DNA of 64,000 bases from an uncultured Lachnotalea sp. (GTDB taxonomy: Bacteria > Bacillota > Clostridia > Lachnospirales > Lachnospiraceae). Positions 5,165 through 25,361 of this stretch are shown piece after piece; position 1 is the first letter of the stretch; each line of letters starts with the position of its first letter. The stretch is taken from NCBI GenBank assembly GCA_947066815.1, contig CAMSZT010000005.1:1-64000 (forward strand). The letters run 5' to 3'. The notes under the pieces were generated by a model. It was not told where the DNA came from, did no database searches, and saw only the letters and a program-made list of their open reading frames with translations. A program made the position numbers and the translations under genes.

Positions 5165-5386
5165 ATGGCAGATATAGCGACGGCAAAGGAGATGCTCGAC
5201 CAGGTAAATGCAGCTATCACAAGTGTACTTGCAGGTGGCCAGTCTTATAAGATTGGATCCCGTCAGCTTAACCGGGCCGATCTCGCCAAGCTTTATGAGA
5301 TGCAGAGGGACCTTCAGGCTCAGGTGGCGGATGGGACCCCCGGATTTTTAGACGATACCTATGTCGCAGTCTTTGAGGGGAGGTGA
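5165..5386 (+). CDS. Small gpW-like head-tail joining protein
   Basis: 73 aa, position between terminase and portal; ITSVLAGGQSYKIGSRQLNRADLAKLYEMQRDL. Confidence 0.7.
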   Translation: MADIATAKEMLDQVNAAITSVLAGGQSYKIGSRQLNRADLAKLYEMQRDLQAQVADGTPGFLDDTYVAVFEGR

Positions 5387-7080
5387 GGCCGGTGGGCAAT
5401 TTTTTAGACAGCATTATCAGCTTCTTTTCCCCGGAAGCCGGAGCCAGGCGGGAAGCCTGGAGACAGAGTCTAAATGAGATACGCAGCTACGATGCGGGGA
5501 ATTATGACCGGCTTAACGCCGGGTGGATCACCTATAATCAATCGGCGGAGAATACGGACCGGTACAGCAGGGAGACCGTAAGGGCCAGGGCACGGGATCT
5601 TGAGCGGAACAGCGATATGGCCAACAGTGTGATCGGGGCGTATAAGCGCAATATCGTGGGCCTCGGTGTAACCCTGCGGGCCAACACGCCAAGCGAGAAA
5701 TTGAACGATCGGATAGAGGGGGCCTGGAGGGAGTGGTGCAAAAGGAAAAACTGTGACGTTACGGAAACGCAGAGTTTTTCGCAGATGACCAGAATGGCGG
5801 TCGAACGGAAGAAGGTGGACGGAGGGATTCTTTTTAAGAAATGCTATCTGCGCGGCGGTGTTGTCCCCTTCCGGTTACAGGCCCTGGAGGTTGACGAGCT
5901 GGACACCACGGCCGTGACGCCGCACGGCAAAGGGAACCGTGTGGTGGGCGGGATCGAGTACAACAGCTACAACAAGCCGATGGGATACTGGATCCGCCAG
6001 TACAGTATAGATGGATTCTCGAATATAGACCCAATTTATGTTCCGGCGAAAGATATCATTTTTATTTTCACGAAGCGACGGCCTTCCCAGATCAGGGAAA
6101 TGAGTGACTTAAGTCCGACCATAACCCGGATCCGGGATGCGAACGAGTTTATGACTGCCGTGAGCGTAAAGGAGCGTATAGCAGCCTGTCTTTCTGTTTT
6201 TATTAAAAAGACGATACCGACGATCGGATTCGGACGCGGGACATCTCCTGAGCCGAAGGCCGGTCCACGGATCAGCTATGAGGGGAAAAACATAAGCCCC
6301 GGTATGATAAAGGAGCTCAACGCAGGGGATGAGATCCAGGTGGTAAACCCGACCGGCCAGGCCACCGACGCCGCGAGCTACATTAAGCTGCAGCAGCGCC
6401 TGATCGGAGCGGGCCAGGGCCTGAGCTATGAGGCTACCAGCCGCGACATGAGCCAGAGCAATTACAGCAGCGCCCGCCAGGGGATCATCGAGGATGAGCA
6501 GACTTACATCGAGGACAGCGAGCTGTTTGACGAGTTCCGCGATGAGGTTTACGAAACCTTTGTCATATCCGGCGTCCTTTCCGGTCTTTTTGATATCAAA
6601 GATTTTTGGAATCCGGAGAAAAGAAAAAAATACCTGGCCCATGAGTGGATCGCAGCGCCCAAGCGCTGGATCGACCCGCTCAAAGAAGTACAGGCAATGA
6701 AAACGGCAGTGCAGACCGGTCAGAAAACCTTCCAGCAGGCAGCAGCCGAAAACGGTAAGGACTGGAAAGACATGATCGACAATATGGCGGAGGTTTTGGA
6801 GTACGGCCGGAAAAAAGGGATAGAATTGGGAGGCGTAATCTATGACAGAGATGCAGGAGAGCTCACGCCGGCTGACGATGAGCCAGAACAGACAGATCCG
6901 GTGCCGGGCGGCCCAGGAACCGAAGGAGAGGCCCCAGGAGAAGCCCCAGGCGGCCCAGGAGGGCAAGAAACCGGAGCAGGCGGAGAAACCTCAGGGGACG
7001 GACAAGAAGCCCCAGAAGAGGCCGCAGGGGACGCCACAGGAGGGCAGGAAAGCGGAGCAGAAGCAAACGGCGGGAAATAA
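5383..7080 (+). CDS. Phage portal protein, lambda family
   Basis: Arg-rich N-terminus, WREWCKRKNCDV...; YEATSRDMSQSNYSSARQGIIED motif; low-complexity G/P/E-rich C-terminus. Confidence 0.93.
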   Translation: MRPVGNFLDSIISFFSPEAGARREAWRQSLNEIRSYDAGNYDRLNAGWITYNQSAENTDRYSRETVRARARDLERNSDMANSVIGAYKRNIVGLGVTLRANTPSEKLNDRIEGAWREWCKRKNCDVTETQSFSQMTRMAVERKKVDGGILFKKCYLRGGVVPFRLQALEVDELDTTAVTPHGKGNRVVGGIEYNSYNKPMGYWIRQYSIDGFSNIDPIYVPAKDIIFIFTKRRPSQIREMSDLSPTITRIRDANEFMTAVSVKERIAACLSVFIKKTIPTIGFGRGTSPEPKAGPRISYEGKNISPGMIKELNAGDEIQVVNPTGQATDAASYIKLQQRLIGAGQGLSYEATSRDMSQSNYSSARQGIIEDEQTYIEDSELFDEFRDEVYETFVISGVLSGLFDIKDFWNPEKRKKYLAHEWIAAPKRWIDPLKEVQAMKTAVQTGQKTFQQAAAENGKDWKDMIDNMAEVLEYGRKKGIELGGVIYDRDAGELTPADDEPEQTDPVPGGPGTEGEAPGEAPGGPGGQETGAGGETSGDGQEAPEEAAGDATGGQESGAEANGGK

Positions 7081-7663
7081 GTCTTTTACAAGGGAGTTTA
7101 CTGGAGGAAGCGCGATCCGGGCCCTGGAGGGCGAAGGGAACGAAAGAAAGTTTGTGCTGAGTTTTTCCAGCGAGGAGCCATACAACCGCTGCTGGTGCGT
7201 TGAGATATTGGATCACGCACCCGGAGCCGTAAACCTTACCCGCCTTAACGATATTGGTGTCCTTCTGTTTAACCATAAGAGAGACGCGGTGCTGGGGCGT
7301 ATCGACCGGGCCTGGATCGAAGGGGACCGGGGATATGCGGAAGTAGAATTTGACACCGATGAAGCCGCAGAGGTCATTTACCAGAAGGTCAGGAGCGGTA
7401 CCCTGAAAGGTGTTTCTGTTGGGTACCTGATCGAGAGCATCGAGGAGGTCATGCCGGGCAGGACAAGCGCCGACGGCAGGTTCACCGGCCCTTGCGACGT
7501 CGCAAGAAAGTGGGAACCTTTTGAGATCTCCATTGTTTCAGTACCGGCAGACCCTACCGTCGGAGTAGGCCGGGAGTTTGAGGAAAACGGCGGGACAGGA
7601 GGGAAGCGCGCGCCGTCACTTCGTGAGCGGCAGCTTCAGATAAACATCAATAAATCTTTATAG
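6842..7663 (+). CDS. HK97-type prohead maturation protease
   Basis: LFNHKRDAVLGRIDRAWIEGDRGYAEVEFD...GVSVGYLIES...KWEPFEISIVSVPADPTVGVGR; RBS gggagg before ATG 6842; overlaps portal by 239 nt. Confidence 0.85.
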   Translation: MTEMQESSRRLTMSQNRQIRCRAAQEPKERPQEKPQAAQEGKKPEQAEKPQGTDKKPQKRPQGTPQEGRKAEQKQTAGNKSFTREFTGGSAIRALEGEGNERKFVLSFSSEEPYNRCWCVEILDHAPGAVNLTRLNDIGVLLFNHKRDAVLGRIDRAWIEGDRGYAEVEFDTDEAAEVIYQKVRSGTLKGVSVGYLIESIEEVMPGRTSADGRFTGPCDVARKWEPFEISIVSVPADPTVGVGREFEENGGTGGKRAPSLRERQLQININKSL

Positions 7664-9923: not shown

Positions 9924-10246
9924 TGCCAGGCTTTAAAGACATAATGCGCGCCGATCTTGATATTTTTATGAACCTTGACGAGTTCGCAGCCATGCACTCG
10001 GTAAACGGGAAAAAGATGGCCGTTACGATCGACAATAATGAGCTGATAGAGCGGGCCAAGAAGGCGAAATCCAATATGGACGGGATCTATGTTAAGAGTA
10101 CGCTCATCTACGTGAAAGCGAAAGATTTCGGCCAGCTCCCGGCAGTCGGTTCCGCCTTTCACCTTGACGGGAAGATATTTAAGGTTACAGACGCAACCAA
10201 CGAGGACGGGCTTTACAGCATACACCTGGAGGCGAATAGAAGCTAG
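9923..10246 (+). CDS. Head-tail attachment/joining protein-like
   Basis: Size and position; IFMNLDEFAAMHSVNGKKMAVTIDNNEL. Confidence 0.6.
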   Translation: MPGFKDIMRADLDIFMNLDEFAAMHSVNGKKMAVTIDNNELIERAKKAKSNMDGIYVKSTLIYVKAKDFGQLPAVGSAFHLDGKIFKVTDATNEDGLYSIHLEANRS

Positions 10247-10264
10247 GGCAGATAGGAGACGGTT

Positions 10265-10936
10265 ATGGGAATTGTTATTGAAGGCATTGATCTGGCCCAA
10301 GTAGAAAAGCAATTAGGATCTATGAAACAAAAGGCTCCGAAAGTTTTAAAACTTGCAGTCAACGACACAGCGCGAAAAGCAAGGTCAAGACTTGCTAAAG
10401 AGGCCCAAAAAACATATGCCGTCAAAGTCGGTGGCTTTAACCGTGCCATGGTAATCAAGCTGGCCACGAATGGAAATCCTGTAGCCATAATACGTTCTAC
10501 TGGGAAGAAAATACCACTTTTTAAATTTGCCCATAGGCGAAACACTCTCGGATCAGAAAAATACTACAATCCAACCCTCCATCGGATGCAAGTTGGAAAA
10601 GGAGGCCGTGGGGCAAGTGCCAAACAATTAAAAAGTTCTTCCTTTAAGTCTGACAATGGTGCAAATTTAAAATGGTTCATAGCTCAGATGCCTAGCGGGC
10701 ATACTGGTATATTCCAACGGAATGGAGGGGTTTCCCGTGGGAAAGGCAATAAAAACTATGCGATATTGAAAAAGCTGGGAGTAGGAGCGGAAATCAGTGA
10801 AAAAATGGGGCCGTCGGCCCCTGAGATGCTTGGGAATGAAGAACGGGTATACGGAATAGTGGAGCCTTATATAATGTCAGATTTAGAACAAGCTGTGAAC
10901 AGGCATGTTTTGCGTGCGATTAGGAACGAAATATAA
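10265..10936 (+). CDS. Minor tail protein, GpZ-like tail completion
   Basis: VNDTARKARSRLAKEAQKTYAVKVGGFNRAMVIKLAT... Confidence 0.65.
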   Translation: MGIVIEGIDLAQVEKQLGSMKQKAPKVLKLAVNDTARKARSRLAKEAQKTYAVKVGGFNRAMVIKLATNGNPVAIIRSTGKKIPLFKFAHRRNTLGSEKYYNPTLHRMQVGKGGRGASAKQLKSSSFKSDNGANLKWFIAQMPSGHTGIFQRNGGVSRGKGNKNYAILKKLGVGAEISEKMGPSAPEMLGNEERVYGIVEPYIMSDLEQAVNRHVLRAIRNEI

Positions 10937-10956
10937 AGATATTGGAGGCGTAAAAG

Positions 10957-11493
10957 ATGGTGGCAACATTCTTGCAGGATGATCTTGTGGAAGAGCTTAA
11001 GGAGATTTTTAAGGACTTCCGTCTGAAAAATCCTATGGGGGAGTTGAGCGAGATAAATGTATTCCCCCAGGAGCTGCCGGTCCCGGCACCGGCGACGCCG
11101 CCGGGGGAAAGCGAGGCGGACCCGGTGCTGCTGGAGGAGGGACTGGCGGGAGATACGGATCCGGCCGGGGCGGAAGACCCTTACCCTTATGCGATCGTGC
11201 GCATTGAGGATGGGGAGATCAGGACCATAGACGGAGAGCAGACCATAACGCTCCTGATCATTTTGGGGGCATACGACAACAGCCTGAAAAACCAGGGGCA
11301 CAAGGACATCTTAAACATGATTCAGAAAATATATGAACGCTTCGCAAAAAATGCGATCTTAGCCGGCAAGTATGAGTGCTTACACCCCATGCAGTGGTCG
11401 CTGCAGGAGGAAGGGAGTTATCCGTATTTTATCGGCGGGATGGCTTTAAGTTTCAGCGTGGCAGCGATAAGAAGGGAGGATCCATACATATGA
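10957..11493 (+). CDS. Hypothetical phage tail-region protein (tail terminator-like position)
   Basis: ORF with position; IVRIEDGEIRTIDGEQTITLLIILGAYDNS. Confidence 0.55.
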   Translation: MVATFLQDDLVEELKEIFKDFRLKNPMGELSEINVFPQELPVPAPATPPGESEADPVLLEEGLAGDTDPAGAEDPYPYAIVRIEDGEIRTIDGEQTITLLIILGAYDNSLKNQGHKDILNMIQKIYERFAKNAILAGKYECLHPMQWSLQEEGSYPYFIGGMALSFSVAAIRREDPYI

Positions 11494-11831
11494 GTGGAAC
11501 AAAGAAAACCCAGGCGGAAACGACCGCAATGACGGCCGCAGGCGCAGAAGCCAGGGTGGCAGCCGGAAAGGCGAAGGAAGGCAAAAAGGAGCCGGTGGCC
11601 TACGTAGGTCCGGATATCAAGAATATAGCGGTCAACGGGACCGTGTATATTGACGGATTGCCGGAGCCCCTGCAGGAGAAGATCAGAGACGTACCGGCGC
11701 TGAAAGGCCTTTTGGTGCCTGTTTCCGGCCTTGCAGCCGCAGGCGTAGCGATCGCGACCCAGGGGACGGCGCTCAATCATCTGTATCACGCCGTTTCCGC
11801 AAGGCTGCAGGAGCAGCAGAAAAACAGATAA
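11490..11831 (+). CDS. Hypothetical phage protein preceding sheath
   Basis: ATG 11490 (MSGTKKTQAETT) with upstream aagggagg; overlaps previous stop. Confidence 0.55.
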   Translation: MSGTKKTQAETTAMTAAGAEARVAAGKAKEGKKEPVAYVGPDIKNIAVNGTVYIDGLPEPLQEKIRDVPALKGLLVPVSGLAAAGVAIATQGTALNHLYHAVSARLQEQQKNR

Positions 11832-11846
11832 GGAGGAAAAGAGAAA

Positions 11847-13301
11847 ATGGCATATAACCATGGGGTAAGAGTCCTGGAAAACCCGACCAGTCTGACGACG
11901 CCGAGACAGGGCACCGCAGGGCTGCAGGTTATTATCGGCGTAGCGCCGGTAAATCTGGCTAAGGATCCTTACAAGGCTACAAACAGACCTATGATCGCAT
12001 ACAGCTTCGCGGAGGCAAGTGCGGCCGTAGGATACTGTGATGATTTTAAGGATTATAACATCTGCGAATCGGTGGATGTTTCTTTCCGGATTTTAAATAT
12101 CGCACCTGTTATCCTGATCAATGTATTGGACCCCAGGACACACAAGAAGGCCCTGGAAGAGCAGGAAGTGGAGGTGGCGGAGGGCCAGGCGGTAGTAGAG
12201 ACCTTTGGGATTCTTGCCGATACCCTGCAGGTGAGGTCCGGAGACCGGGCGATGGAGGCCGACACGGATTATATCGTAACATTTGATGACAGGGGGATGG
12301 CGGTCATCACACTGGTAGAGGCTGCCGGCATCAAGACACTCACGGTTTCCGGTTCCGTGATCGACCCTTCCAAGATCACCTATACAGATATCATCGGAGG
12401 CTACAATGTAAACACCGGAGAGGAGAAGGGCCTGGAAGTCATCCGCCAGATCTTCCCGCTGCTGCAGCTCACTCCCGGGCTGCTTGTTTCCCCCGGGTGG
12501 AGCAAGCAGCCAAACGTCGGTGCAGCCATCGCGGCCAAGTGTACCGGGATCAACGGCGTATTTTCCTGTGAGGCTGTCGTAGACCTTGACACCACAGAGG
12601 AAGCCGGAGCCCGGAAATACACAGACGTTTTGGCCGTAAAGCAGGCTTCCGGCTTTGTGAGCAGCCATATAAGTGTCGAGTGGCCATGCGTAAAGATTGG
12701 AGACAAGATCTACCATGCCAGCGCGGTCAAGGCGGCACTTACCGCGTATATCGACGCAGGGAACGACGATGTGCCCTCCTTAAGCCCTTCGAATAAAGCT
12801 GTCGGCATTTCCGGCCTCTGCCTTGAGGACGGCACCGAGGTGGTCCTGGACGAGCAGCAGGCGAATCTGGTCAACAGCTTCGGCGTCTGCACCTTTAACA
12901 ACTTTTCCGGATGGACCACCTGGGGGAACAATACAGCTGTCTATCCGACATCAAACGACCCGAAAGACCGGTGGTTTTGCTGCCGCCGCTTCTTTAGCTG
13001 GTGGGGGAATTCCTTTATCCTGACCTACCATGAACGGGTGGATGATTACAATAACCCGCGTTTGATCGAAGCCATTGTCGACGATGAAAACGTCCGCGGC
13101 AATTCCTACGCAGCCCAGGGAAAATGTGCAGGGGCTTACATTGAGTGGCGGGAGCAGGAGAACACGGCAGACGACATTATGGACGGCAGGATGCGGTTTT
13201 TACACCATTTAGCGCCCTGGACACCGGCGGAAGATATCCTGGACGTTTTGGAGTTTGATCCGGACTTATTGGAGGCAGCATTTACAGGAGGTGAGTCTTA
13301 A
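11847..13301 (+). CDS. Contractile tail sheath protein
   Basis: MAYNHGVRVLENPTSLTTPRQGTAGLQVIIGVAPVNLA...; C-terminal DVLEFDPDLLEAA; followed by tube. Confidence 0.92.
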   Translation: MAYNHGVRVLENPTSLTTPRQGTAGLQVIIGVAPVNLAKDPYKATNRPMIAYSFAEASAAVGYCDDFKDYNICESVDVSFRILNIAPVILINVLDPRTHKKALEEQEVEVAEGQAVVETFGILADTLQVRSGDRAMEADTDYIVTFDDRGMAVITLVEAAGIKTLTVSGSVIDPSKITYTDIIGGYNVNTGEEKGLEVIRQIFPLLQLTPGLLVSPGWSKQPNVGAAIAAKCTGINGVFSCEAVVDLDTTEEAGARKYTDVLAVKQASGFVSSHISVEWPCVKIGDKIYHASAVKAALTAYIDAGNDDVPSLSPSNKAVGISGLCLEDGTEVVLDEQQANLVNSFGVCTFNNFSGWTTWGNNTAVYPTSNDPKDRWFCCRRFFSWWGNSFILTYHERVDDYNNPRLIEAIVDDENVRGNSYAAQGKCAGAYIEWREQENTADDIMDGRMRFLHHLAPWTPAEDILDVLEFDPDLLEAAFTGGES

Positions 13302-13813
13302 TGTTAGTGACGAAGATCAACGCCTACAATGTATACAACGGAGGCACCAGGCTGGTCGGACTTTCCGATGAAGTCAGCCTGCCGGACTTTGAGTCCATGA
13401 CCGAGACGATCAGCGGGCCGGGCTTCCTGGGGGAGGTCGACGAGCCGCTTTTGGGGCACTTCGGCGCTTCGGAGATCGAGATCCCTTTCAGGACCTTGAA
13501 CGAGGATATGTTTGCACTTTTGCAGCAGGGGATGGCCGTAAACCTTACCTTGCGGATGAGCACCCAGGCGATCCAGGAGTCTACGCTTGCGACCGACTTT
13601 ATGCCGAGCCGGGTGGTCATCAAAGGTAAGAGCAAGGGCTTTACCGGCGGCAAGGTAAAGCAGGGGGAAGGGACCGGATCTGCTGTCAAGGTAGAGGTCA
13701 TCTATATCCTTATTGAGGTGAACGGCAAAAAGAAGTTTGAGCTTGATAAGATCAATTTCCAGTATAAAGTGAACAATGTTGACCTTTTGGCAAAGATCAG
13801 AAAGCAGGTGTAA
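13301..13813 (+). CDS. Phage major tail tube protein
   Basis: INAYNVYNGGTRLVGLSDEVSLPDFESMTETISGPGFLGEVDEPLLGHFGASEIEIPFR. Confidence 0.9.
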   Translation: MLVTKINAYNVYNGGTRLVGLSDEVSLPDFESMTETISGPGFLGEVDEPLLGHFGASEIEIPFRTLNEDMFALLQQGMAVNLTLRMSTQAIQESTLATDFMPSRVVIKGKSKGFTGGKVKQGEGTGSAVKVEVIYILIEVNGKKKFELDKINFQYKVNNVDLLAKIRKQV

Positions 13814-13816
13814 GAT

Positions 13817-14191
13817 ATGGGGACCAATAAGACTTTCGAAACAGATATCCGGGAGCAGAAGACGAAGGAGATTACGGCAGCGGTACAGGGGCCGGAGGAG
13901 AATAAGTATATCATCAAACTCCGTAAGCCTTTCGTATTTGAGGACGAGACATATGTCGAGATCGATCTGAGTGGTCTGGAGGATATGAGCGCCAGAGACA
14001 TGATCCAGGCGCAGCGCACGATGGAACGGTCCGGCAGTATCAACGTGCTGCCGGAAATGTCCATGGAGTATGCCTGCATTTTTGCCGGCAGGGCTACCGG
14101 GCTGCCGGTCGAGTTCTTCCAGTCGCTGCCGCCGAAGGAGGCGATCAAGGTAAAGAACAAAGTGACAAATTTTTTCTACGGCGAGGATTAA
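13817..14191 (+). CDS. Tail assembly chaperone, short (0-frame) product
   Basis: 124 aa between tube and tape measure; ends NKVTNFFYGED*. Confidence 0.85.
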   Translation: MGTNKTFETDIREQKTKEITAAVQGPEENKYIIKLRKPFVFEDETYVEIDLSGLEDMSARDMIQAQRTMERSGSINVLPEMSMEYACIFAGRATGLPVEFFQSLPPKEAIKVKNKVTNFFYGED

Positions 14192-14334
14192 AGCCGACAG
14201 ACGGCGCGCATCTTCGCAGATTAACGGTACGGCTGTCCATTCTTTTAAAGACAGGCCTCAAGGATATTGAGGACCTGTCTATTTTTGACCTTGCCGACGT
14301 AGCAAAGGAGGTGGCGGAAGCATATGGCAAGTAG
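13817..14334 (+). CDS. Tail assembly chaperone, predicted -1 frameshift product
   Basis: Slippery A_AAT_TTT at 14167-14173 overlapping T_TTT_TTC at 14170-14176; -1 frame adds FLRRGLKPTDGAHLRRLTVRLSILLKTGLKDIEDLSIFDLADVAKEVAEAYGK* ending at TAG 14332-14334. Confidence 0.85.
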
Positions 14335-17300
14335 GAGCAAAGAGATGGAGCTCGCTATAAAAATAGCGGGCAAAGTTGAGTCTTCCTTTACGGGAGCCTT
14401 GGGTACTGCCGGAAACGGAATAAAAAGGCTTACGAAAACTTTAGCCACGGCTTCTGTTGAAGCCGCGAAGGCTGTCGGAGCGCTGGCCGTCTCTGCCGTA
14501 AACGTCGGCAAGGAATTTGAGACTGCCATGAGCCAGGTGCAGGCCACCATGCTTTTGGACACCGGCACGGCGGAGGGCGCGGCAGCTATGGCCACCCTTG
14601 AGGAGGCGGCCAGGGAATGCGGGCGTACTACGGCCTTTTCGGCTACCGAGGCGGCGGAAGCCTTAAATTATTTGGCCCTTGCCGGTTACGACGCCGAACA
14701 GGCAGCCACAGCGCTGCCCACGGTTCTAAAGCTTGCAGGGGCGGGCGCCATGGATCTGGCAGCGGCCAGCGATATGGTGACGGACAGTATGTCCGCTTTG
14801 CAGATTGAGGCTACGGAGGAAAATTTAAACAGCTTCGCGGATCAGCTGGCACAGACAGCATCAAAAGCCAACACTTCCGTATCGCAGTTAGGCGAAGCGA
14901 TACTTACAGTGGGGGCCACCGGTGCAAACTTGGCCGGGGGAACCACGGAGCTGAACACGGCGCTCGGCATTCTGGCCGACAACGGCTTAAAGGGGGCTGA
15001 GGGCGGAACACACTTAAGAAATGTTATCCTTTCTTTGCAGAGTCCCACAGACAACGCCAGCGAGGCGCTTAAAAACCTGGGTGTGGACATTTATGACACC
15101 AAGGGGAATATGCGGGGGCTCAACAATATTTTCGGGGATCTGAGCTCTGCGATGGAGGGGATGACGCAGGAGCAGAAAGACAGTATTATCAGTACTATCT
15201 TCAATAAAACAGACCTGACATCCGCGAATGCGCTGCTGGCGAATTGTACTGACCGGTGGGATGAGCTGAACCTGGCGATCGAAAACAGCGCCGGGGCCTG
15301 TGAGGATATGTATGCGATACAGCTCGATAATTTGGACGGTGATATAAAGATACTGCAATCCGGACTTTCAGACCTTGGGATCAGTATTTATCAGGACCTG
15401 AACGGCCCCCTTCGCTCTATGACACAGCTTGCGACGGATATGGTCGAAGAGCTTTCCGCAGCTTACAGTGAGGGCGGGATGCAGGGCATGGTCGGAGCCA
15501 TAGGCGGCTGTCTCTCCGAAGCGGTCGGGGTGATCTCAGAGTACATACCGCAGGCAGTATCCATGGGAGTGGACCTCATAGGAGGATTTGTGGAGGGGAT
15601 AGCAGACAATGCGGGCCCCCTGGCAGACGCGGCATCGGAAGCGTTGACTCTTTTCATAGACGGCCTTTTTTCTCTGGTCCCCCAGGTCTTGCTTGCCGGG
15701 ATCGACATCGTGACACAACTGGCAAACAGCATTACAAGTAAGCTTCCGACACTGATAAGCAACGGCATCCGGGCGATTACAAACTTTGTGAGCGGTATCA
15801 TTCAGAGACTGCCGGCGGTCATATCGACAGCCCTTACGCTGATCCAGACATTGGCAGACAGCTTAGTGGCCAATGCCCCCACACTGATAAACGCAGCGGT
15901 CCAGCTTATGGTCAGTTTGGTGACCGGCATCTTATCCATGCTCCCGCAGCTCCTGCAGACGGGGATACAGATTATTTTGAGTCTGGCCCAGGGGATCATT
16001 GCAAGCCTGCCCTCTATCCTGCAGGCAGGCGTCCAGGTCATCACGGGTTTTATTTCTTCGATAGCGCAGATGCTCCCCATGATCGTACAGGGCGGAGTGC
16101 AGCTGATCATATCTCTTATCCAGGGGATCATAGCGAATCTGGGGAATATAGCGCAGGCGGCAGGACAGATCATCGTGGCACTGATCACTGGCCTTGTCTC
16201 TGCCATCCCACAGATCTTTGCATCGGCAGGACAGCTTGTGGGGGCGATCATTGACGCTATCTTTGAAACAGACTGGATCGAGGTCGGCGGGGAGATCATA
16301 GGCGGGATCGCAGATGGCTTTATGTCCGGCTTTTTCGGACTGGTTGATAAAGTAAAAGGATTGTGGAACAGCTTCACAGGCTGGCTGTTTGGTGATGATG
16401 AAGACGAGGAGGCAGAGCAATCCGGAGAAGCAGCAGCCAGCAGTTATGCAGATGGGGTTTCCAGTGGCAGCGGCTCCGTAAGTGCGGCATTGAGCGACGT
16501 GGTGGCAACTTTTAGCAACATAGATACGACCACGGTCTCGGAAGCTGGAAATACGGCGGCTGCGGCCTATACGACAGGAATGACCGATAGCCTTAACAAT
16601 TTTACTTTCGATCCCTCCGGCATCGGCTTTGACAGCACGACACTCACAGCGAACCTCAGCGCGACGGGGCTTGAGAGCGGGACAGCGTTCACGGCCAGTT
16701 TAGGCCAGAGTGTGACGGGATACAGCATCGATACATCGGGGATCGTTGTGGATATGTCCGGCCTCGAAAGCGGTCTTATGACAGCGGGAACAACGGGCAC
16801 GGCAGTGTTGAGCGACGGGATCAGCAATAATTCCGAGATGGTGACGGCAGCGGCGGCCGGTCTTGCAAGCGATGTCAACGGGGCATTAGACTCCGGATGG
16901 AACACGGCAAAGAGCAGCGCAGAGAGTGCCATGGGCAGCTTGGCCAACACGGTTCAGGCAAAAGCCCAGGAGGCGGCGCAGGCGGTTAAGGCGGCCTTTG
17001 AAAACATGGTCATCACGATCCCGAAACCGAAAATACCGGTCATAAGCGTTTCAACGGATTCGGTTTCATACGGAGAAGGCGGGAACGTGAGTGTCCCCCA
17101 GTTTTCTGTAAATTGGAACGCGCTCGGCGGTATTTTTGATGCCCCGGCCATATTTAATACGCCGGAGAACGGCCTGCAGGGCGTAGGGGAAGCGGTACTG
17201 CCACTTGATACTCTGTGGAGCCGGATGGAAGGCATGATAACCGACGCCGTGAAGCAGAGCAGCGGCGCAAGCATGATAGAGTCGCTACTGCAGAGAGTAC

Positions 17301-17506
17301 GGGGGATAACCGATGGAGCAGGCAGTGTGGGTGGCGGCCTGGAGCTTGCGGGAGCAGGCGGGCCGAGCATTTCTTACGCACCTGTTTACAATCTTTACGG
17401 CAGCGCCACGAAAGAGGAAGCCGTCGAGGCAGAAAGGTTGAGCCAGGCAGATTTTAACAAGATGATGAAGCAATGGCAAAGAGAAAATAGCAGGATCAGG
17501 TTTTAA
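14324..17506 (+). CDS. Phage tail tape measure protein
   Basis: 1060 aa; GKEFETAMSQVQATM...ATLEEAARECGRTTAFSATEAAEALNYLALAGYDAEQ; long hydrophobic helical repeats. Confidence 0.95.
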   Translation: MASRSKEMELAIKIAGKVESSFTGALGTAGNGIKRLTKTLATASVEAAKAVGALAVSAVNVGKEFETAMSQVQATMLLDTGTAEGAAAMATLEEAARECGRTTAFSATEAAEALNYLALAGYDAEQAATALPTVLKLAGAGAMDLAAASDMVTDSMSALQIEATEENLNSFADQLAQTASKANTSVSQLGEAILTVGATGANLAGGTTELNTALGILADNGLKGAEGGTHLRNVILSLQSPTDNASEALKNLGVDIYDTKGNMRGLNNIFGDLSSAMEGMTQEQKDSIISTIFNKTDLTSANALLANCTDRWDELNLAIENSAGACEDMYAIQLDNLDGDIKILQSGLSDLGISIYQDLNGPLRSMTQLATDMVEELSAAYSEGGMQGMVGAIGGCLSEAVGVISEYIPQAVSMGVDLIGGFVEGIADNAGPLADAASEALTLFIDGLFSLVPQVLLAGIDIVTQLANSITSKLPTLISNGIRAITNFVSGIIQRLPAVISTALTLIQTLADSLVANAPTLINAAVQLMVSLVTGILSMLPQLLQTGIQIILSLAQGIIASLPSILQAGVQVITGFISSIAQMLPMIVQGGVQLIISLIQGIIANLGNIAQAAGQIIVALITGLVSAIPQIFASAGQLVGAIIDAIFETDWIEVGGEIIGGIADGFMSGFFGLVDKVKGLWNSFTGWLFGDDEDEEAEQSGEAAASSYADGVSSGSGSVSAALSDVVATFSNIDTTTVSEAGNTAAAAYTTGMTDSLNNFTFDPSGIGFDSTTLTANLSATGLESGTAFTASLGQSVTGYSIDTSGIVVDMSGLESGLMTAGTTGTAVLSDGISNNSEMVTAAAAGLASDVNGALDSGWNTAKSSAESAMGSLANTVQAKAQEAAQAVKAAFENMVITIPKPKIPVISVSTDSVSYGEGGNVSVPQFSVNWNALGGIFDAPAIFNTPENGLQGVGEAVLPLDTLWSRMEGMITDAVKQSSGASMIESLLQRVRGITDGAGSVGGGLELAGAGGPSISYAPVYNLYGSATKEEAVEAERLSQADFNKMMKQWQRENSRIRF

Positions 17507-17520
17507 AGGAGGCCGGCGGC

Positions 17521-17763
17521 ATGGCGAAAAAGACCTACATCACAAAACAGGGAGATACCTGGGATAATATAGCTTTGCAGGTATATGGCGGGGAACGGTA
17601 CGCCGATTTTTTAATGCAGAATAATTACGCCTTCTTAGACATCCTTGTGTTTTCGGCGGGAACCGTTCTCAGTACCCCGGCATTGCCGGAGGAACGGGAC
17701 GGGGCTCTGCCGCCCTGGCGGACCGATCGGACGGGCGGGGAGCGGGATCCATATGACGATTGA
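17521..17763 (+). CDS. Tail protein X
   Basis: YITKQGDTWDNIALQVYGGERYADFLMQNN (LysM-like). Confidence 0.85.
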   Translation: MAKKTYITKQGDTWDNIALQVYGGERYADFLMQNNYAFLDILVFSAGTVLSTPALPEERDGALPPWRTDRTGGERDPYDD

Positions 17764-17774
17764 GGAGGCGCGTT

Positions 17775-19082
17775 ATGGGAGTGGATACACCAAGAAAGGC
17801 AAAAGTTTTTATTGCCTATATGCCGAAAGGGACAGCTGCTACCAGGACGGCAGATGCGATGGCAGAATACGAGGAGGGTTTTTCTTATGTCGACGCAGCT
17901 ACCGGACAATCCGATACGATGAGCCTTAAGGTCTGTAACCGGGATCTGAGGTGGGCAGACAAGTGGCTTCCGAAAAAGGGCGATAAGATGACAGCAAAGA
18001 TAAAAGCGTTCAGCTGGGATATAGCCGGGCGGGATCTTTCTTTTTCCTGTGGGAAGTTTTGCTGTGACGATCTGAGTTTCAGCGGGCCGGAGCTGGTCTG
18101 CACGATCGGAGGCGTATCGGTCCCGGAAGGCCAGGCTTTCCGGTCCACACAGCGGACCTATACCTGGGAAAAGGCGACCATACAGGAGATCGCCAGGCGG
18201 ATCGCCAAACGGTATGGATTAGAGCTCTGCTATGAGGCAAAAAAAATATCTATAGCCAGTATGGAACAGAACAAGCAGAGTGACTGTGAATTTTTAAATG
18301 GCCTCTGCGAAGATTACGGGCTGTACATTAAAGTCTATTACGGAAAGATCATCATCTATGATATAGACGCCTATGAATCGAAAGAAGCAGTTGCTGATTA
18401 TCACATAACAGATTTTGATACATGGAGTTACAACACTACGCTCACCGGTACTTACACGGGAGCAACGATCAAATATAGCAGAGGAGACAGCGAGGAGGAG
18501 CTGACCCTTACGGTAGGATCCGGAAACCGGATATTAAACATAAATGAAAAGGTGGACGGCCTGGTCGATGCACAGCTAAAGGCGTGTGCAAGAGTAAACA
18601 AGGAGAACCGGAACGCCGTTACGATGACAGCCACCATAAAGGCCAGCTTTAAGATCGCGGCCGGAGTATGCATCCAGGTTAAGGGAGCCTACAGCCTGGA
18701 TGGAAAATATTTCATTGACAAGGTCACCCATAATATAGAGGCGGAGGGTGCTTATACAATGGATCTGGAGATGCACAAGGTCCAGACCAAGATCAAACAG
18801 GTTACAAATTCTTCGTCTATCAAACCGACGAAACCCGCGCCCGGCAGTTCCGGATCCGCGGCACCGGAAGCAAACGATGCCCTGGCTGTGGGCGATAAGG
18901 TTATCGTAAACGGTCCTGCCTATTATGCGGGAAATGGAGGCCGGAGTAATAGCTGCAGCAATATGACAATGTACATTACGGAGATCTTGGGCGGAGGCTA
19001 TAAATACCAGTACGGAGTGGCCAAGAGGAAAGGTGGTACCAGGTACGGATGGTGTGCAAAGGGAAGCTTGAGGAAGGCGTAG
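17775..19082 (+). CDS. Late control D-like baseplate hub protein
   Basis: MGVDTPRKAKVFI...KKISIASMEQNKQSDCEFLNGLCEDYGLYIKVYYGKIIIYD; C-terminal SH3-like segment; likely start ATG 17775. Confidence 0.85.
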   Translation: MGVDTPRKAKVFIAYMPKGTAATRTADAMAEYEEGFSYVDAATGQSDTMSLKVCNRDLRWADKWLPKKGDKMTAKIKAFSWDIAGRDLSFSCGKFCCDDLSFSGPELVCTIGGVSVPEGQAFRSTQRTYTWEKATIQEIARRIAKRYGLELCYEAKKISIASMEQNKQSDCEFLNGLCEDYGLYIKVYYGKIIIYDIDAYESKEAVADYHITDFDTWSYNTTLTGTYTGATIKYSRGDSEEELTLTVGSGNRILNINEKVDGLVDAQLKACARVNKENRNAVTMTATIKASFKIAAGVCIQVKGAYSLDGKYFIDKVTHNIEAEGAYTMDLEMHKVQTKIKQVTNSSSIKPTKPAPGSSGSAAPEANDALAVGDKVIVNGPAYYAGNGGRSNSCSNMTMYITEILGGGYKYQYGVAKRKGGTRYGWCAKGSLRKA

Positions 19083-19095
19083 GGAAGGAGTCGGC

Positions 19096-19563
19096 ATGGG
19101 AGATATCAGGATCGGGAAAGTCTCAAGTGTTGATCATGAAAACGGTATGATCCGGATACTTTATACAGACCGGGACGGGGCCGTCACGAGGGCGCTGCCG
19201 GTCATGACCTTTAACGACGAATACAAGATGCCGCAGGTCGGCCAGTATGTCCTGGTGGTCCACCTGAGCAATGGATCGGAGGCCGGATACATACTGGGCA
19301 CCTATTGGAACAAGGCCAATGGGCCGTCCAGGAGCGGAAAGGGGATCTACCGGAAGGAGATGGGATTTACGCCAGGCGAGGCATACGCGGAATATGAAAG
19401 CGAGGAAAAGCGCCTGGAGCTCCACGCCGACAATGTCCTGTTATCCGGGCTTAAGATCGATATCGTAGCCAATACGGTAGATATTGAAGCCGATACGATC
19501 ACATTTACGGACAGCGGCGGTAGCATTACCCTTGCGGAGCTGAGAGAAAAGTTATTCACATAA
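19096..19563 (+). CDS. Baseplate assembly protein V-like
   Basis: IRIGKVSSVDHENGMIRILYTDRDGAVTRALPVMTF...MPQVGQYVLVVHLSNGSEAGYILGTYWN. Confidence 0.85.
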   Translation: MGDIRIGKVSSVDHENGMIRILYTDRDGAVTRALPVMTFNDEYKMPQVGQYVLVVHLSNGSEAGYILGTYWNKANGPSRSGKGIYRKEMGFTPGEAYAEYESEEKRLELHADNVLLSGLKIDIVANTVDIEADTITFTDSGGSITLAELREKLFT

Positions 19564-19587
19564 AAGAAAGGAAAGAGGTAATGAGGG

Positions 19588-19986
19588 ATGGCGATCGGGA
19601 ATTTTGGCTCACTTATCACCTTTGAGACCAGCGACGCCAGGATATTGAGTCTGCAGGATATAAAGCGGGAAGTGAGCGGCAGATGGGCGGTCCATCCCCG
19701 CATAGGGAAAAAACCTCTGCGCCAGTTCCTGGGGGCGGATACAGAGAAGGTCACATTTACCATTAAGCTGGATGCCAGACATGGAATACGGCCGCGGACA
19801 ACGATAGAGAGGATAGAAGACCATGTGAGGAGCGGTACTCCGGAGAGTCTGGTCATAGGCGGAAAGAAAATGGGAAGCAGTAAAATGACGATCAACAGCA
19901 TAAGTGAGACCTGGGATGAGATATGGAACAGGGGGGAGCTTGTACGGGCTTCTCTTGATCTCAGTCTTGAAGAATACCCGGAATAG
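19588..19986 (+). CDS. Phage tail protein U-like (GpU)
   Basis: IGNFGSLITFETSDARILSLQDIKREVSGRWAVHPRIGKKPLRQFLG. Confidence 0.8.
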   Translation: MAIGNFGSLITFETSDARILSLQDIKREVSGRWAVHPRIGKKPLRQFLGADTEKVTFTIKLDARHGIRPRTTIERIEDHVRSGTPESLVIGGKKMGSSKMTINSISETWDEIWNRGELVRASLDLSLEEYPE

Positions 19987-19999
19987 AAAAGGGGGTAAT

Positions 20000-20347
20000 A
20001 TGGCTATAGTACAATTTGTTGGCTTTGATTATATGAGTACCAGCTGCGTGGCAGAAATCAAACGGAATGTTACTGCTCTGATCGAAACACCGGAGGGAAG
20101 CTGTCCTGGAGACCGGTCTTACGGGATCCCGCAGGAATTCATAGGAATGCCGCCTGATATTGCCCGTAACCTTGCGGCACTTTCTGTGATCGAAAAGCTG
20201 GAGATCTATGAGCCAAGAGTAGAACTGCGTGAGGTAACGGCAAAAGCATCTTTGGAGGACGGCCTTTTGAAGAGTATATATTTGATCGGGCCAAACACAA
20301 AATATGAGGCGGAATCGGAAGAAAAAGAGGATGCCGACGAGGAGTAG
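20000..20347 (+). CDS. Baseplate wedge protein, gpW/gp25-like position
   Basis: Position between GpU-like and gpJ; starts MAIVQFVGFDYMST. Confidence 0.5.
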   Translation: MAIVQFVGFDYMSTSCVAEIKRNVTALIETPEGSCPGDRSYGIPQEFIGMPPDIARNLAALSVIEKLEIYEPRVELREVTAKASLEDGLLKSIYLIGPNTKYEAESEEKEDADEE

Positions 20348-20360
20348 GGAGGCGGTTTTT

Positions 20361-21515
20361 ATGGCAGATATGCTGGCCGGTATCGACAGTTTACCGGATA
20401 TCAGCTTCATTGATGATCTGACCTTGACAGACGTACAGGCGCTTGTGCTTAATGCATTTTATGATCATTACAAGCAGATCACCGGAAAAAAGATCATTCT
20501 TGCCAGGGGTGATCCTTACCGGATCATGATGCTGGCCTGTGCGCAGGTTATCTACCAGGGCCTGCAGCAGGTGGACAAGGCCGGGAAGATGAATTTTCTC
20601 AAATATGCTTATGGGGATTACCTTAAGAATCTGGCCGCACTTAAAAGAGTTACGGAAAACGAGCCGGAAAAGGCGGCTGTCAGGGTACGCTGGAAGCTTG
20701 AACGGCCAAGAGAGTCCGCGACTGCCATCCCTGCAGGGAGCAGGATCACGGCAGATTATGCAGTATATTTTGAAACCCAGGATTATGCGGAGATACCGAT
20801 CGGGGAGACAGAGATCGTTTTGACCATGCTCTGTACAGAGGCCGGGGAACAGGGCAACGGCTACATGGCCGGGGAGCTCAGTGTCCTTGTCGATCCAGTG
20901 GCATTCATTGAAAGCGTGGCCAACATTGAGACATCAAAGGGCGGTACCGACAGGGAATCCGATCAGAGTATCGCAGAGCGGACATTCCTGGCTCCTTCCA
21001 GTTTTTCTACAGCCGGTCCGGATGACGCTTACATATACCACGCGAAGGATTTTAACCAGGAGGTGGGGGACGTTCTGCCAACATCCCCTACGCCGGGCAT
21101 AGTAGACATACGTTTTATCCTGAAGGACGGCAGCATTCCGGGAGAAACTATGATCGCAGAGATGGAGAGACATTTGCGGCAGCGCAGCAAGCGTCCTCTT
21201 ACAGACTTCGTACAGGTCGCGGCGCCGGACGTTGTAAAGTATAACACGGACTTCACTTACTGGATCAATGCCAGCGATCATGCTTCCGCTGCACAGATCC
21301 AGGAGCAGGTCAAACAGGCTGTAAGCGATTATCAGCTGTGGCAGAGTACCGGGATCGGCAGAGACTTAAACCCGGATGAGCTTAAGGCCCTCCTCAAGAA
21401 AGCAGGGGTAAAAAGGGCGGAGATCCGGGAACCGGTATTTACCGTACTGGAGGACACAGAAGTGGCTCAGGCTGCCAGTACAAATATCGTATACGGAGGG
21501 CTTGAGGATGATTGA
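20361..21515 (+). CDS. Baseplate J/gp47 family protein
   Basis: GSRITADYAVYFETQDYAEI...GKGGTDRESDQSIAERTFLAPSSFSTAGPDDAYIYHAKDFNQEVGDV. Confidence 0.92.
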   Translation: MADMLAGIDSLPDISFIDDLTLTDVQALVLNAFYDHYKQITGKKIILARGDPYRIMMLACAQVIYQGLQQVDKAGKMNFLKYAYGDYLKNLAALKRVTENEPEKAAVRVRWKLERPRESATAIPAGSRITADYAVYFETQDYAEIPIGETEIVLTMLCTEAGEQGNGYMAGELSVLVDPVAFIESVANIETSKGGTDRESDQSIAERTFLAPSSFSTAGPDDAYIYHAKDFNQEVGDVLPTSPTPGIVDIRFILKDGSIPGETMIAEMERHLRQRSKRPLTDFVQVAAPDVVKYNTDFTYWINASDHASAAQIQEQVKQAVSDYQLWQSTGIGRDLNPDELKALLKKAGVKRAEIREPVFTVLEDTEVAQAASTNIVYGGLEDD

Positions 21516-22122
21516 TTTTTACGACGGAGAGATAAAAGATATCCTGCCGGCCAACTTGATGGAGGACCCTGCCGCTCAGGCATTCAGCTATGCATTGCGG
21601 GAAGGTACCAGGCTTTTAAACCGATACACGCAGCTTTGTTATGTTTACTGCAACATAGATACAGCACCGGATGCAGTGGTGGACATTTTGGCAAAGGAGC
21701 TCCGGACACAGTATTACAGTGATTCTATGGAGCTCGATGTGAAACGTGGATTAGTGCGAAACACGTTGTCCTGGTATATGACGGCCGGGACACCTGCTGC
21801 CGTTGAAGAACTGGTCGGTATTGTTTTTGGAGAGGGGGAGGTCTCAGAATGGTTTGAGTACGGCGGGAAGCCATACTGGTTTAAGATCAAGACCAATGCC
21901 ATATTGACGGAGGATGCAAACACCTTTTTTTCAGATATGATCAAAAGGGTAAAAAATACCCGAAGCCATATTGAGTCTATAGAGATCCATCGGACTACAA
22001 ACACAAATATATATGTCGGGGGGAGCTACGTGCAGCGGTACAGGCAGGTTGCCGTTGCTGATGCCTATGAAATGAACCTGGAAAAGGATCAGACAATTTC
22101 TTTGGATTCTGAGGAGGGATAA
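21508..22122 (+). CDS. Phage tail protein I
   Basis: IKDILPANLMEDPAAQAFSYALREGTRLLNRYTQLCYVYCNID...DILAKELRTQYY. Confidence 0.9.
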   Translation: MIDFYDGEIKDILPANLMEDPAAQAFSYALREGTRLLNRYTQLCYVYCNIDTAPDAVVDILAKELRTQYYSDSMELDVKRGLVRNTLSWYMTAGTPAAVEELVGIVFGEGEVSEWFEYGGKPYWFKIKTNAILTEDANTFFSDMIKRVKNTRSHIESIEIHRTTNTNIYVGGSYVQRYRQVAVADAYEMNLEKDQTISLDSEEG

Positions 22123-22124
22123 GT

Positions 22125-23198
22125 ATGCCACAGCCATTCAATACAGCAGTTATAACAGACAACGGTGCTCAGTTACTCACCAGGGCTCATGCCGGTGAGG
22201 TCAAAGTAGAATTTACAAGGATCGTAATCGGGAATGGATCCTACAGCGAAGAAGAGCGGTCGGTAACGGCCCTGCAAAAACGGACGGCGCTAAAATCACA
22301 GAAAAACAGCTATCCACTTTCTGATGTTGTCGTTCATTCCGAACACAGCGTAAAGGTGACAGCCCTGATCACAAATCAGGATCCGATCACAGGAGAAGCC
22401 ATAATAAATGATGGATATTATATTAATGAAATGGGCTTGTATGCCAAAGTGAAGGGGGGAGATGACAGCACAGAGATCCTTTACAGCATTACCACAACGA
22501 CAGGCGAAAACGGAGATTTTATGCCTCCTTATAACGGCTATAATCCGGCTCAGATAATACAGGACTATTATGCGACGGTAAGTAATTCAAAAGAGGTCAC
22601 TATCTGTACCGATAACCAGGCGGTAGCTTTGGCTGAGGATATAGAGGAGATCCGGAGGAAATTAGATGAAGATATGGGAGAGGTCAGGGAGGAACTGGCG
22701 GAAAATATAGGAGGGATCAGGGGAGAGCTGGCAGAAAATACAGGAGGAATCCAAACTCAGCTTACCAAATTAACGAATGATCTGGCTGAAAAAGCGGATG
22801 CCTCCCATACACACAGCTACGCCGGCTCCGCATCGGCCGGAGGTTCGGCCGCCAGCGCGGTCAAGCTGGATACTGCGGCGGCTGGGTCGGGGACTCAGCC
22901 AGTGTATTTTTCCGGGGGTAAGCCGGTGGCATGTACTTATTCTCTGGCCAAGTCTGTGCCGGCAAATGCCGTTTTCACGGATACCAATACCTGGAGAGGA
23001 GTGCAGAACAACCTAACCAGTACAGCCACAGACCAATCCCTAACGGCAAATATGGGACGGGTTTTGAACAACAGTATCAGCAGTCTCCGTTCATCATTGA
23101 GCGATGATATCATCAGCCTTCGTTCATCAATACTTAACTATAAAATGTCAGGATTAAATTTTGCCAGCGGCATTAGCGTGGTTGGAGCCGGACAATGA
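22125..23198 (+). CDS. Tail fibre/collar protein; continues in the same frame past TGA 23196-23198 to TAA 23490-23492
   Basis: MPQPFNTAVITDNGAQLLTRAHAGEVKVEFTRIVIGNGSY N-terminal tail-collar motif; 97 open codons after TGA. Confidence 0.88.
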   Translation: MPQPFNTAVITDNGAQLLTRAHAGEVKVEFTRIVIGNGSYSEEERSVTALQKRTALKSQKNSYPLSDVVVHSEHSVKVTALITNQDPITGEAIINDGYYINEMGLYAKVKGGDDSTEILYSITTTTGENGDFMPPYNGYNPAQIIQDYYATVSNSKEVTICTDNQAVALAEDIEEIRRKLDEDMGEVREELAENIGGIRGELAENTGGIQTQLTKLTNDLAEKADASHTHSYAGSASAGGSAASAVKLDTAAAGSGTQPVYFSGGKPVACTYSLAKSVPANAVFTDTNTWRGVQNNLTSTATDQSLTANMGRVLNNSISSLRSSLSDDIISLRSSILNYKMSGLNFASGISVVGAGQ

Positions 23199-23593
23199 GG
23201 AATTGGTAATAGGGGGAATAATCAAATTATAAAATTTCCTGCCACCGGATTATGCATCTTATCTGCACAATTTGGATTCGATAGGGTACCTTCAAACCCG
23301 CTTGCTTTTGCGACGTTCCCCAGTGGTTTTCAGCCAATCGTCTCAATGGGATTCGATTCCGTCGCATTAAACGGAAAGATCTTGAATTTAGAATTTGGAG
23401 AGACGGGGATTGGGACTTATAGTACCATTTCTGTGGGAGAACAGCATCGTATATGTGTTACATATTTATCTAACCCGGAAGTGGTAGTTTAATTGATGAA
23501 AATGGCACAGATTGTTATATGAAATCTTATTGATAAAATGAATTTTCTATCTATTAGACAGAGAAAGGACAAAAATGAACAGAACACGCGACG

Positions 23594-23620
23594 CTCCCTC
23601 ATCAGGGAGTTATTTTTATA
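23594..23620 (+). terminator. Hairpin CTCCCT-catc-AGGGAG followed by TTATTTTTAT
   Basis: Perfect 6-bp stem with T-rich tail between fibre and lysis genes. Confidence 0.6.
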
Positions 23621-23661
23621 CAGAATTTTATGTGCGAAGTCGCATGGAAAGGAGGAGCACG

Positions 23662-23907
23662 ATGACAGAGGCGATCATTGTAGCGGTACTGTCTCTGGCC
23701 GGGACGCTGGCCGGCAGCTACCTATCCAGCCGGAAATCAGCGGTCCTTGTAGCATACCGTTTGGAGGAACTTGAGAAAAAGGTACAGGCTCACAATAATC
23801 TGATCGAACGGACATACCGCCTGGAGGAACGGACAGAGCTTCAGGAGGAGAAGATCAAAGTAGCAAATCACAGGATCGAGGATCTGGAGAAAGAGAGGAA
23901 TCAATAA
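23662..23907 (+). CDS. Small membrane-anchored coiled-coil protein of the lysis module
   Basis: MTEAIIVAVLSLAGTLAGSYLSSRKS + coiled coil; RBS ggaggag. Confidence 0.75.
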   Translation: MTEAIIVAVLSLAGTLAGSYLSSRKSAVLVAYRLEELEKKVQAHNNLIERTYRLEERTELQEEKIKVANHRIEDLEKERNQ

Positions 23908-24111
23908 ATGAATGAGAAAACGAGGATGTGGTGGAAAGCAGCGGGTGTCAGGGCTGTAAAGACGGTCGCGCAGACAGCGGTCGCTACGATCGGCACGGCA
24001 GCAGCTCTGGGGAATGTAGACTGGTTTATGGTGGCTTCTGCTTCCGCGTTGGCAGGGATTTTGTCAATCCTTACATCAGTTGCAGGGCTTCCGGAGGTCA
24101 AGGAGGGATAG
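23908..24111 (+). CDS. Phage holin
   Basis: 67 aa with two hydrophobic segments, r1t-like: VDWFMVASASALAGILSILTSVAGLPEV. Confidence 0.85.
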   Translation: MNEKTRMWWKAAGVRAVKTVAQTAVATIGTAAALGNVDWFMVASASALAGILSILTSVAGLPEVKEG

Positions 24112-24114
24112 GAT

Positions 24115-25158
24115 ATGGTAAAGATCGGATTAGATGCAGGACATTATGCAGGCGACGGCAGAGTGGACAAGGATTTCAGAGCCGCTCTTGGAACAAAAGA
24201 TGAGTACACGCTCAATCTGAGAGTGTATAAGGTTGTTGAAAGGATTTTAGAATCCTCTGGCCATACGGTTATTGACATTGGCCGCCAGGAACAGAGCGTG
24301 ACGGTAAGGGCAAAGAGGGCGGCTCAGAATGAATGTGATCTGGTGGTATCGATCCATCATAATGCAGGGAGAGGACGCGGCGCTACCCTGTTCCGGCATA
24401 AGAACGGGACTATGGGAAGTGCAAGCAGAAGGTTACAGGAGTCCATTTATGCACATGTTGAGAAGATCAATAGGGGAAACCGGAGCACTCCGATCAATAA
24501 GGAAGAGTTTGGTGTGATCAACTGCGATGTTACAAAATGCCCGTCCGTACTGGTCGAATGTGCCTTTATGGATAACTGCACAGATATCGGATTGATCAAT
24601 TCCGCAGGATACGCAGAGCGCATGGGAGCGGCCATCGCGGCCGGGATCAATGATTATACCGGTGCCGCAGGTAATACTGGATCTGGAGAGACTGATGATA
24701 AGCATGCGCCTGTGCCCGCAGTGGTAAAGACGTATAATCCGGCGGCATATGCCAAAGTCAGGGGCCTTACCAAAGCAGATTCTCATCTCAACGTCCGTTC
24801 CGGTCCGGGGACCGGCCATGGAATCCTCCGACAGTTGGCCAATGGCAATGAGGTGGATGTACTGACTCTGTACTCTAACAACTGGGCGAAAGTTAACATC
24901 GTCGGGCAGCAGGGATATGTCCATGCAGATTACCTGGATATCCAGGAGCGGAAACCGGCGAAGCGGATCGTGACTGTGACCGGATGCACAGCCCTCAACG
25001 TCCGGACAATCCCGAACGGCCCGGTCGTCGCGGGGATCGTTAAGGCCGGCACTGTGCTGGACGTGATTGGCTCCGGGAAGGACTCCGACGGGGACACGTG
25101 GCTCCAGGTGAGGCACGGGGGGCTGGCGGGATTCATCTGGCCGAAGTATGTGGAATGA
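24115..25158 (+). CDS. N-acetylmuramoyl-L-alanine amidase endolysin with two SH3-type repeats
   Basis: KIGLDAGHYAGDGRVD...VSIHHNAG...CPSVLVECAFMDN; LNVRSGPGTGHGIL and LNVRTIPNGPVV repeats. Confidence 0.95.
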   Translation: MVKIGLDAGHYAGDGRVDKDFRAALGTKDEYTLNLRVYKVVERILESSGHTVIDIGRQEQSVTVRAKRAAQNECDLVVSIHHNAGRGRGATLFRHKNGTMGSASRRLQESIYAHVEKINRGNRSTPINKEEFGVINCDVTKCPSVLVECAFMDNCTDIGLINSAGYAERMGAAIAAGINDYTGAAGNTGSGETDDKHAPVPAVVKTYNPAAYAKVRGLTKADSHLNVRSGPGTGHGILRQLANGNEVDVLTLYSNNWAKVNIVGQQGYVHADYLDIQERKPAKRIVTVTGCTALNVRTIPNGPVVAGIVKAGTVLDVIGSGKDSDGDTWLQVRHGGLAGFIWPKYVE

Positions 25159-25174
25159 GTATAAGATAAGTCCA

Positions 25175-25195
25175 GTTAGTAACACGTTAGTAACA
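25175..25195. repeat. Tandem direct repeat GTTAGTAACA-c-GTTAGTAACA just past the endolysin; candidate integrase arm site/attachment-end region
   Basis: Two identical 10-mers with 11-bp period at the phage/host boundary. Confidence 0.3.
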
Positions 25196-25361
25196 AAAAT
25201 TCTTCGAAAGTATAGAGTTTACAGGGTTTCTTGCCTTAAAATCTTAAGAAAAATTTAAAGAATCCCTCCGGATCTTTTTCAGGATATCCCGCTATGATAA
25301 AGGAAATCGGGAAGAAGGCAGACAAAAATTTTGTCAGAAGTATCCTGGAAGGAGGGGTAAG

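Follow-up and report, generated by a model that had tools for sequence, protein, structure and literature searches.

A conserved RNA hairpin with terminator-like features inside the predicted -1 frameshift extension of a prophage tail-assembly chaperone gene

Frameshifting in the genes for tail-assembly chaperones is a well-known and conserved device (PMC5009743); it has been measured at 6-7% in an HK97-like cluster (PMC3711429), and a predictor has been trained on such frameshifts (PMC10885494). Phage lambda makes a short and a long chaperone, G and G-T, through a -1 slip immediately ahead of the tape-measure gene (PMC5009743). In P2, the FETUD operon yields gpE and gpE+E' with the gene order tube-E-T, a T_TTT_TTG site near the end of E, given as T6G (PMC3931495), and a -1 extension that overlaps the start of T (E+E' ends at 19857 and T starts at 19850). 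Vibrio phage X29 likewise carries a PF10109 homologue that has T_TTT_TTG and a joined -1 CDS and precedes the tape measure; its chaperone is already annotated with this frameshift, as 'lambda gpGT analog'. The prophage locus described here shares these arrangements. It differs from lambda in that the latter slips on GGGAAAG and in an unrelated protein; it differs from P2 in that BLAST with the protein of this locus did not find P2; and its chaperone is 34% identical to that of X29. The preliminary description had set the layout beside those of lambda, P2 and Mu, of which lambda and P2 are apt parallels and Mu, with a shift of -2 (PMC5009743), is not one in direction. The frameshift at this locus is an unsurprising further case of a known device and serves mainly to correct annotation, the record of the close phage FP_Epona, for instance, having only the short form. 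The new part is a conserved hairpin within the extension; the literature, within an incomplete coverage, yielded no account of either a hairpin or a terminator in the extension of a tail chaperone.

The window, that is, the whole 64,000-nucleotide stretch analysed (the start of contig CAMSZT010000005.1 from an uncultured Lachnotalea sp.), contains a tailed prophage whose tail genes encode sheath, tube, chaperone and tape measure, followed by more tail and baseplate genes (Table 1). Elsewhere in the window, the portal ORF (5383-7080) and an apparent prohead-protease ORF (6842-7663) share 239 nt in different frames and are both of low complexity there. The nearest relatives are from Lachnospiraceae and other Clostridia, which makes a host of that group probable. 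The chaperone has PF04985 before it and PF10145 after it. Judged by profile matches, it is a Phage_TAC_7 protein of the P2 E / Mu 41 type: the short form scores 31.1 bits against PF10109 (tail chaperones E, 41, 14; curated cut-off 25; E=2.4e-7) and matches phrog_3140 at E=9.3e-34. The fusion with the -1 extension does better than the short form for both profiles (35.4 bits for PF10109), and its match to phrog_166 improves from E=0.07 to 0.00096, with an alignment that enters the extension. Sequence searches with the fusion returned no relatives of solved structure.

Table 1. Coordinates of the tail-gene features in the window
Feature	Position	Strand	Evidence or remark
Sheath	11847-13301		
Tail tube gene (P2 FII type)	13301..13813	+	PF04985 E=1.7e-35; just upstream of chaperone
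Short form of the tail-assembly chaperone (P2 E type), 124 aa	13817..14191	+	PF10109, phrog_3140
Tandem slippery run A_AAU_UUU_UUC	14167..14176	+	In-frame register; conservation falls on U_UUU_UUC (14170-14176)
-1 frame extension, 53 codons and stop TAG 14332-14334	14173..14334	+	Open frame; conserved protein
Conserved RNA hairpin AGACAGGCCTCAAGGATATTGAGGACCTGTCT inside extension	14249..14280	+	Synonymous-recoding z -4.2; family peak; covariation; -19.6 kcal/mol
U-tract TTTTT after hairpin; together terminator-like	14282..14286	+	T-run association across homologues
Shine-Dalgarno-like AAAGGAGG of tape-measure gene, inside -1 extension	14304..14311	+	Sequence
Tape-measure gene	14324..17506	+	PF10145 E=2e-47 and several tape-measure PHROGs

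The reading frames around the slip site are exactly as the preliminary description gave them. The 0-frame ends GTG ACA AAT TTT TTC TAC GGC GAG GAT TAA (stop 14189-14191), the overlapping heptamers A_AAT_TTT (14167-14173) and T_TTT_TTC (14170-14176) both lie in the 0-frame register, and the -1 frame runs on to a TAG that overlaps the tape-measure start, with 11 nt shared between gene and extension. A slip at either heptamer gives the identical 172-aa fusion. The -1 frame is without stops from 13942 on, and the +1 frame has a stop at 14268. A separately started -1 gene was considered and rejected: that frame contains no ATG, GTG or TTG at 13942-14311 (only CTG/ATT), which leaves no independently started gene of useful size. 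Among the 174 ORFs of at least 90 codons on both strands of the window, six carry a canonical heptamer within their last 12 codons, and a heptamer together with a -1 extension of at least 40 codons occurs in this chaperone and in only two minus-strand ORFs, which lack other support.

Comparison across the family places the slip site and the extension on a firm computational basis. Homologues were gathered by protein, by -1 extension and by extension profile, and not by slip site, and in the resulting non-redundant set a canonical -1 heptamer stands at or just upstream of the junction in 50 of 51, which is the decisive argument that the frameshift exceeds chance. The site is U_UUU_UUN in 46, only G_GGU_UUU in two, A_AAA_AAC in two and lacking in one (L018); an automated tally had given 45 with the U6 site and four without, and the final count adds L040, a U6G site whose junction was displaced by an insertion in the extension, while L105 and L106 were scored by an A_AAA_AAC a few codons upstream, where the -1 frame is open. 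Since A_AAU_UUU accompanies the U6 site in only 16 of the 51, the two overlapping heptamers are probably unequal, with the U6 site the main one. Past the 0-frame stop, the -1 extensions align as a conserved protein and evolve as one (pN/pS about 0.14-0.49, with differences mostly at third positions). One homologue, L034, has a stop within the -1 frame, its siblings being intact, consistent with a decayed prophage. Taken with the chaperone family, the gene order and a tape-measure overlap like that of P2, the kept slip site and the kept -1 protein bear out the programmed -1 ribosomal frameshift proposed earlier, and this reading of the sequence is very probably correct. Two exceptions to the usual site deserve mention as such: L018/L104 keep the -1 extension and the hairpin but have ATG GTT TTC TCG at the junction in place of a canonical heptamer, through a non-standard slip, decay or sequencing error, and L105, L106 and L111 have A_AAA_AAC about seven codons upstream in place of the U6 site, the -1 frame being open from there.

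In the working of such a system, most ribosomes would stop at 14191 and release the 124-aa short form, while a presumed minority would slip by -1 on U_UUU_UUC (perhaps on A_AAU_UUU as well) and continue to 14334. The resulting 172-aa fusion would correspond to P2 E+E' and lambda G-T. On the model of the family, the short form may coat the tape measure and the long form may recruit tail tube subunits.

The hairpin, which the preliminary description had not noticed, lies 72 nt beyond the slip site and 57 nt beyond the 0-frame stop. A stimulatory fold had earlier been suggested for 14177-14240. That segment alone reaches z=-2.31, and homologues have no conserved excess there; the bases near the slip site, being read in two frames, were not recodable, so a proximal stimulator may still exist. 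Folding of 14177-14290 gives z=-4.95, and the added stability was traced to the hairpin. Structure was separated from protein constraint by synonymous codon recoding of the homologues. A scan of the 51, over the 180 nt that precede the junction and the 150 nt that follow it, produced a single sharp peak for scanning windows starting at +61 to +79 (positions counted from the junction), where the mean z is about -2 and roughly half of the sequences fall below -2, and no comparable peak at the slip site or upstream. In a best-window test on 59 extensions, P<=0.05 was reached in 64% and P<=0.01 in 53%, as against 10% and 5% in the chaperone and 18% and 4% in the tape measure as controls. A proximal stem at 14181-14217, considered as a stimulator and set aside, folds well in the window and has no consistent excess over synonymous recoding in homologues.

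Covariation points in the same direction. In an alignment of 24 distinct sequences, partly picked by structure, 86% of the stem cells are paired, 31 cells are double-changed, compared with 11.0 in shuffles, and the score is 0.340 against at most 0.128 when the stem is slid; one pair appears as G-C in 8, C-G in 7 and U-A in 3. Here as in the other comparisons, the counts are taken over kindred sequences and do not represent independent events. In the 51 sequences unselected by structure, the same register takes several top ranks by excess pairing out of 5571 possible 9-pair stems. A strand test on G-U versus A-C cells (26 versus 15) hangs too much on single pairs to be used. Rfam, searched with 10000-26000 at E up to 1, gave no match. 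Conserved structure in this RNA is a computational observation, and the hairpin is very likely an RNA element under selection in its own right.

What such an element does is best approached through what follows it. The stem of -19.6 kcal/mol runs into ATTTTTGA, a stable hairpin and then a U-tract, as in intrinsic (Rho-independent) terminators, where a stable stem is directly followed by a T run. Unlike ordinary terminators, this element is located within coding sequence, in an extension that only frameshifted ribosomes translate, and termination here is a prediction. TTTTT follows the 3' arm in most of the main class of homologues, in which the hairpin spans +74 to +110. A T run of at least four is present in 16 of 27 hairpin-bearing and 2 of 24 other homologues (Fisher P=1.5e-4), and T is the last base of the V/I codon that follows the stem in 19/22 versus 2/15 (P=1.9e-5), both P values being optimistic owing to the kinship of the sequences. 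Other V/I codons in the same extensions have no such bias, and well-supported tree branches force at least five changes of the hairpin label. Terminator-like elements are ten times as dense over the first 160 nt past the slip site (3.06/kb) as in the flanks (0.29/kb). Further, a covariance model built on the element, searched blind in 397 genomes, matched the chaperone extension in 10 and, in three other, related genomes, stem-loops with T runs outside long frames that resemble intergenic terminators; the window contains a single match. As the model itself contains the T run, these matches are supportive and not proof. An off-the-shelf terminator scan missed the element on the + strand, a bulge in the stem being the probable cause. 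The U-tract is short (5 U) and is absent in the hairpin-bearing L012, L015, L037 and L039, which weakens a pure terminator reading. On this evidence from sequence comparison, the favoured role of the hairpin and U-tract, at about even odds, is that of a partial intrinsic terminator or a pause site for RNA polymerase. A device of this kind in the tail operon would leave tube, sheath and chaperone in excess over the tape-measure and baseplate proteins. If it does so, tail phages of gut Firmicutes would set abundant tail parts against few tape-measure and baseplate copies by two ratio devices, one translational and one transcriptional, within about 120 nt.

Hairpins in the extension are not confined to the main class. 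Where a subfamily lacks the +74 hairpin, a strong one is often present at another place in the extension (for example, +18 to +69), mostly with no U-tract. L004, L017, L068, L075, L103 and L044 carry strong hairpins at about +21 to +69, which start near the 0-frame stop and replace the one at +74. X29 differs from the prophage studied here in having no +74 hairpin and a weaker one at +21, and in P2 and its close kin a different hairpin, which has no U-tract, occupies +54 to +97. This long-stemmed E' hairpin (CTGATGGCGG...CCGCCATCAG) is shared by P2 (L001), PSP3 (L215) and Kp4852-2 (L224), and Aeromonas phage LPM4 (L222) has a different strong hairpin at +71. A general hairpin of P2-like E' genes was considered and set aside: only a minority of 11 phages are significant, and P2 itself is unstable between tests (P 0.01 versus 0.175).

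These U-tract-less and shifted hairpins make a serious rival of the view that the structure is an element of mRNA decay, end protection or translational insulation in a region, from the 0-frame stop to the start of the tape-measure gene, that would be almost free of ribosomes. Across subfamilies, hairpins start anywhere from +18 to +78, no further upstream than the 0-frame stop, a U-tract is lacking in most of the hairpins positioned away from +74, and the Vibrio phage homologue L044 and the Exiguobacterium homologue L040 have one too. However, the U-tract is tied to the hairpin in the main class, and the covariance model of the element finds terminator-like intergenic places elsewhere. Such a function is a tentative alternative to termination.

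Frameshift stimulators usually start 5-9 nt past the slip site, and not every tail-chaperone frameshift has a proximal one. That the hairpin is instead a distal stimulator of the frameshift could be argued from its conservation within the gene that carries the slip site, at a fixed distance of 72 nt in the main class; but that constancy follows from a protein free of indels, and across subfamilies the distance varies from about 15 to 75 nt. A stimulatory role is unlikely.

A further elaboration of the terminator reading would unite frameshift and hairpin in one switch, a frameshift-controlled transcription attenuation. A leading ribosome in the -1 frame would trail RNA polymerase through 14249-14286 and block the hairpin, permitting transcription of the tape-measure and baseplate genes, whereas after an unshifted ribosome had stopped at 14191 many transcripts would end at the U-tract; a single event would then set the ratio of long-form chaperone to tape measure. 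RNA polymerase outruns ribosomes in Bacillus subtilis and probably in other bacteria too (PMC13323073), which weakens such coupling, and the switch is quite unlikely. The embedded hairpin is nevertheless of more interest than the frameshift itself, and it offers a clear site for asking whether frameshifting and transcription are coupled.

It is very improbable that the hairpin merely reflects constraint on the protein and its codons. The outer stem bases do encode conserved residues (T-G-L ... L-S-[IV]-F), but protein-preserving recodings are seldom as stable (P<=0.01 in 53% of 59 sequences) and the stem pairs alter on both sides, and the idea is already largely refuted. Least credible is transcriptional slippage on the T6 run as the source of the long form, in that, although the run is six T or slightly more in most homologues, its phase relative to the 0-frame is that of a tandem-slip heptamer, the G_GGT_TTT homologues L037 and L038 have only four T, L105 and L106 carry the upstream A_AAA_AAC, and known relatives shift ribosomally (PMC5009743, PMC3931495). 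Among the relatives, L020/L027 (G261:C7) and L039 (phage FP_Toutatis) apparently have two tandem chaperone domains in one ORF that ends in the U6 slip site.
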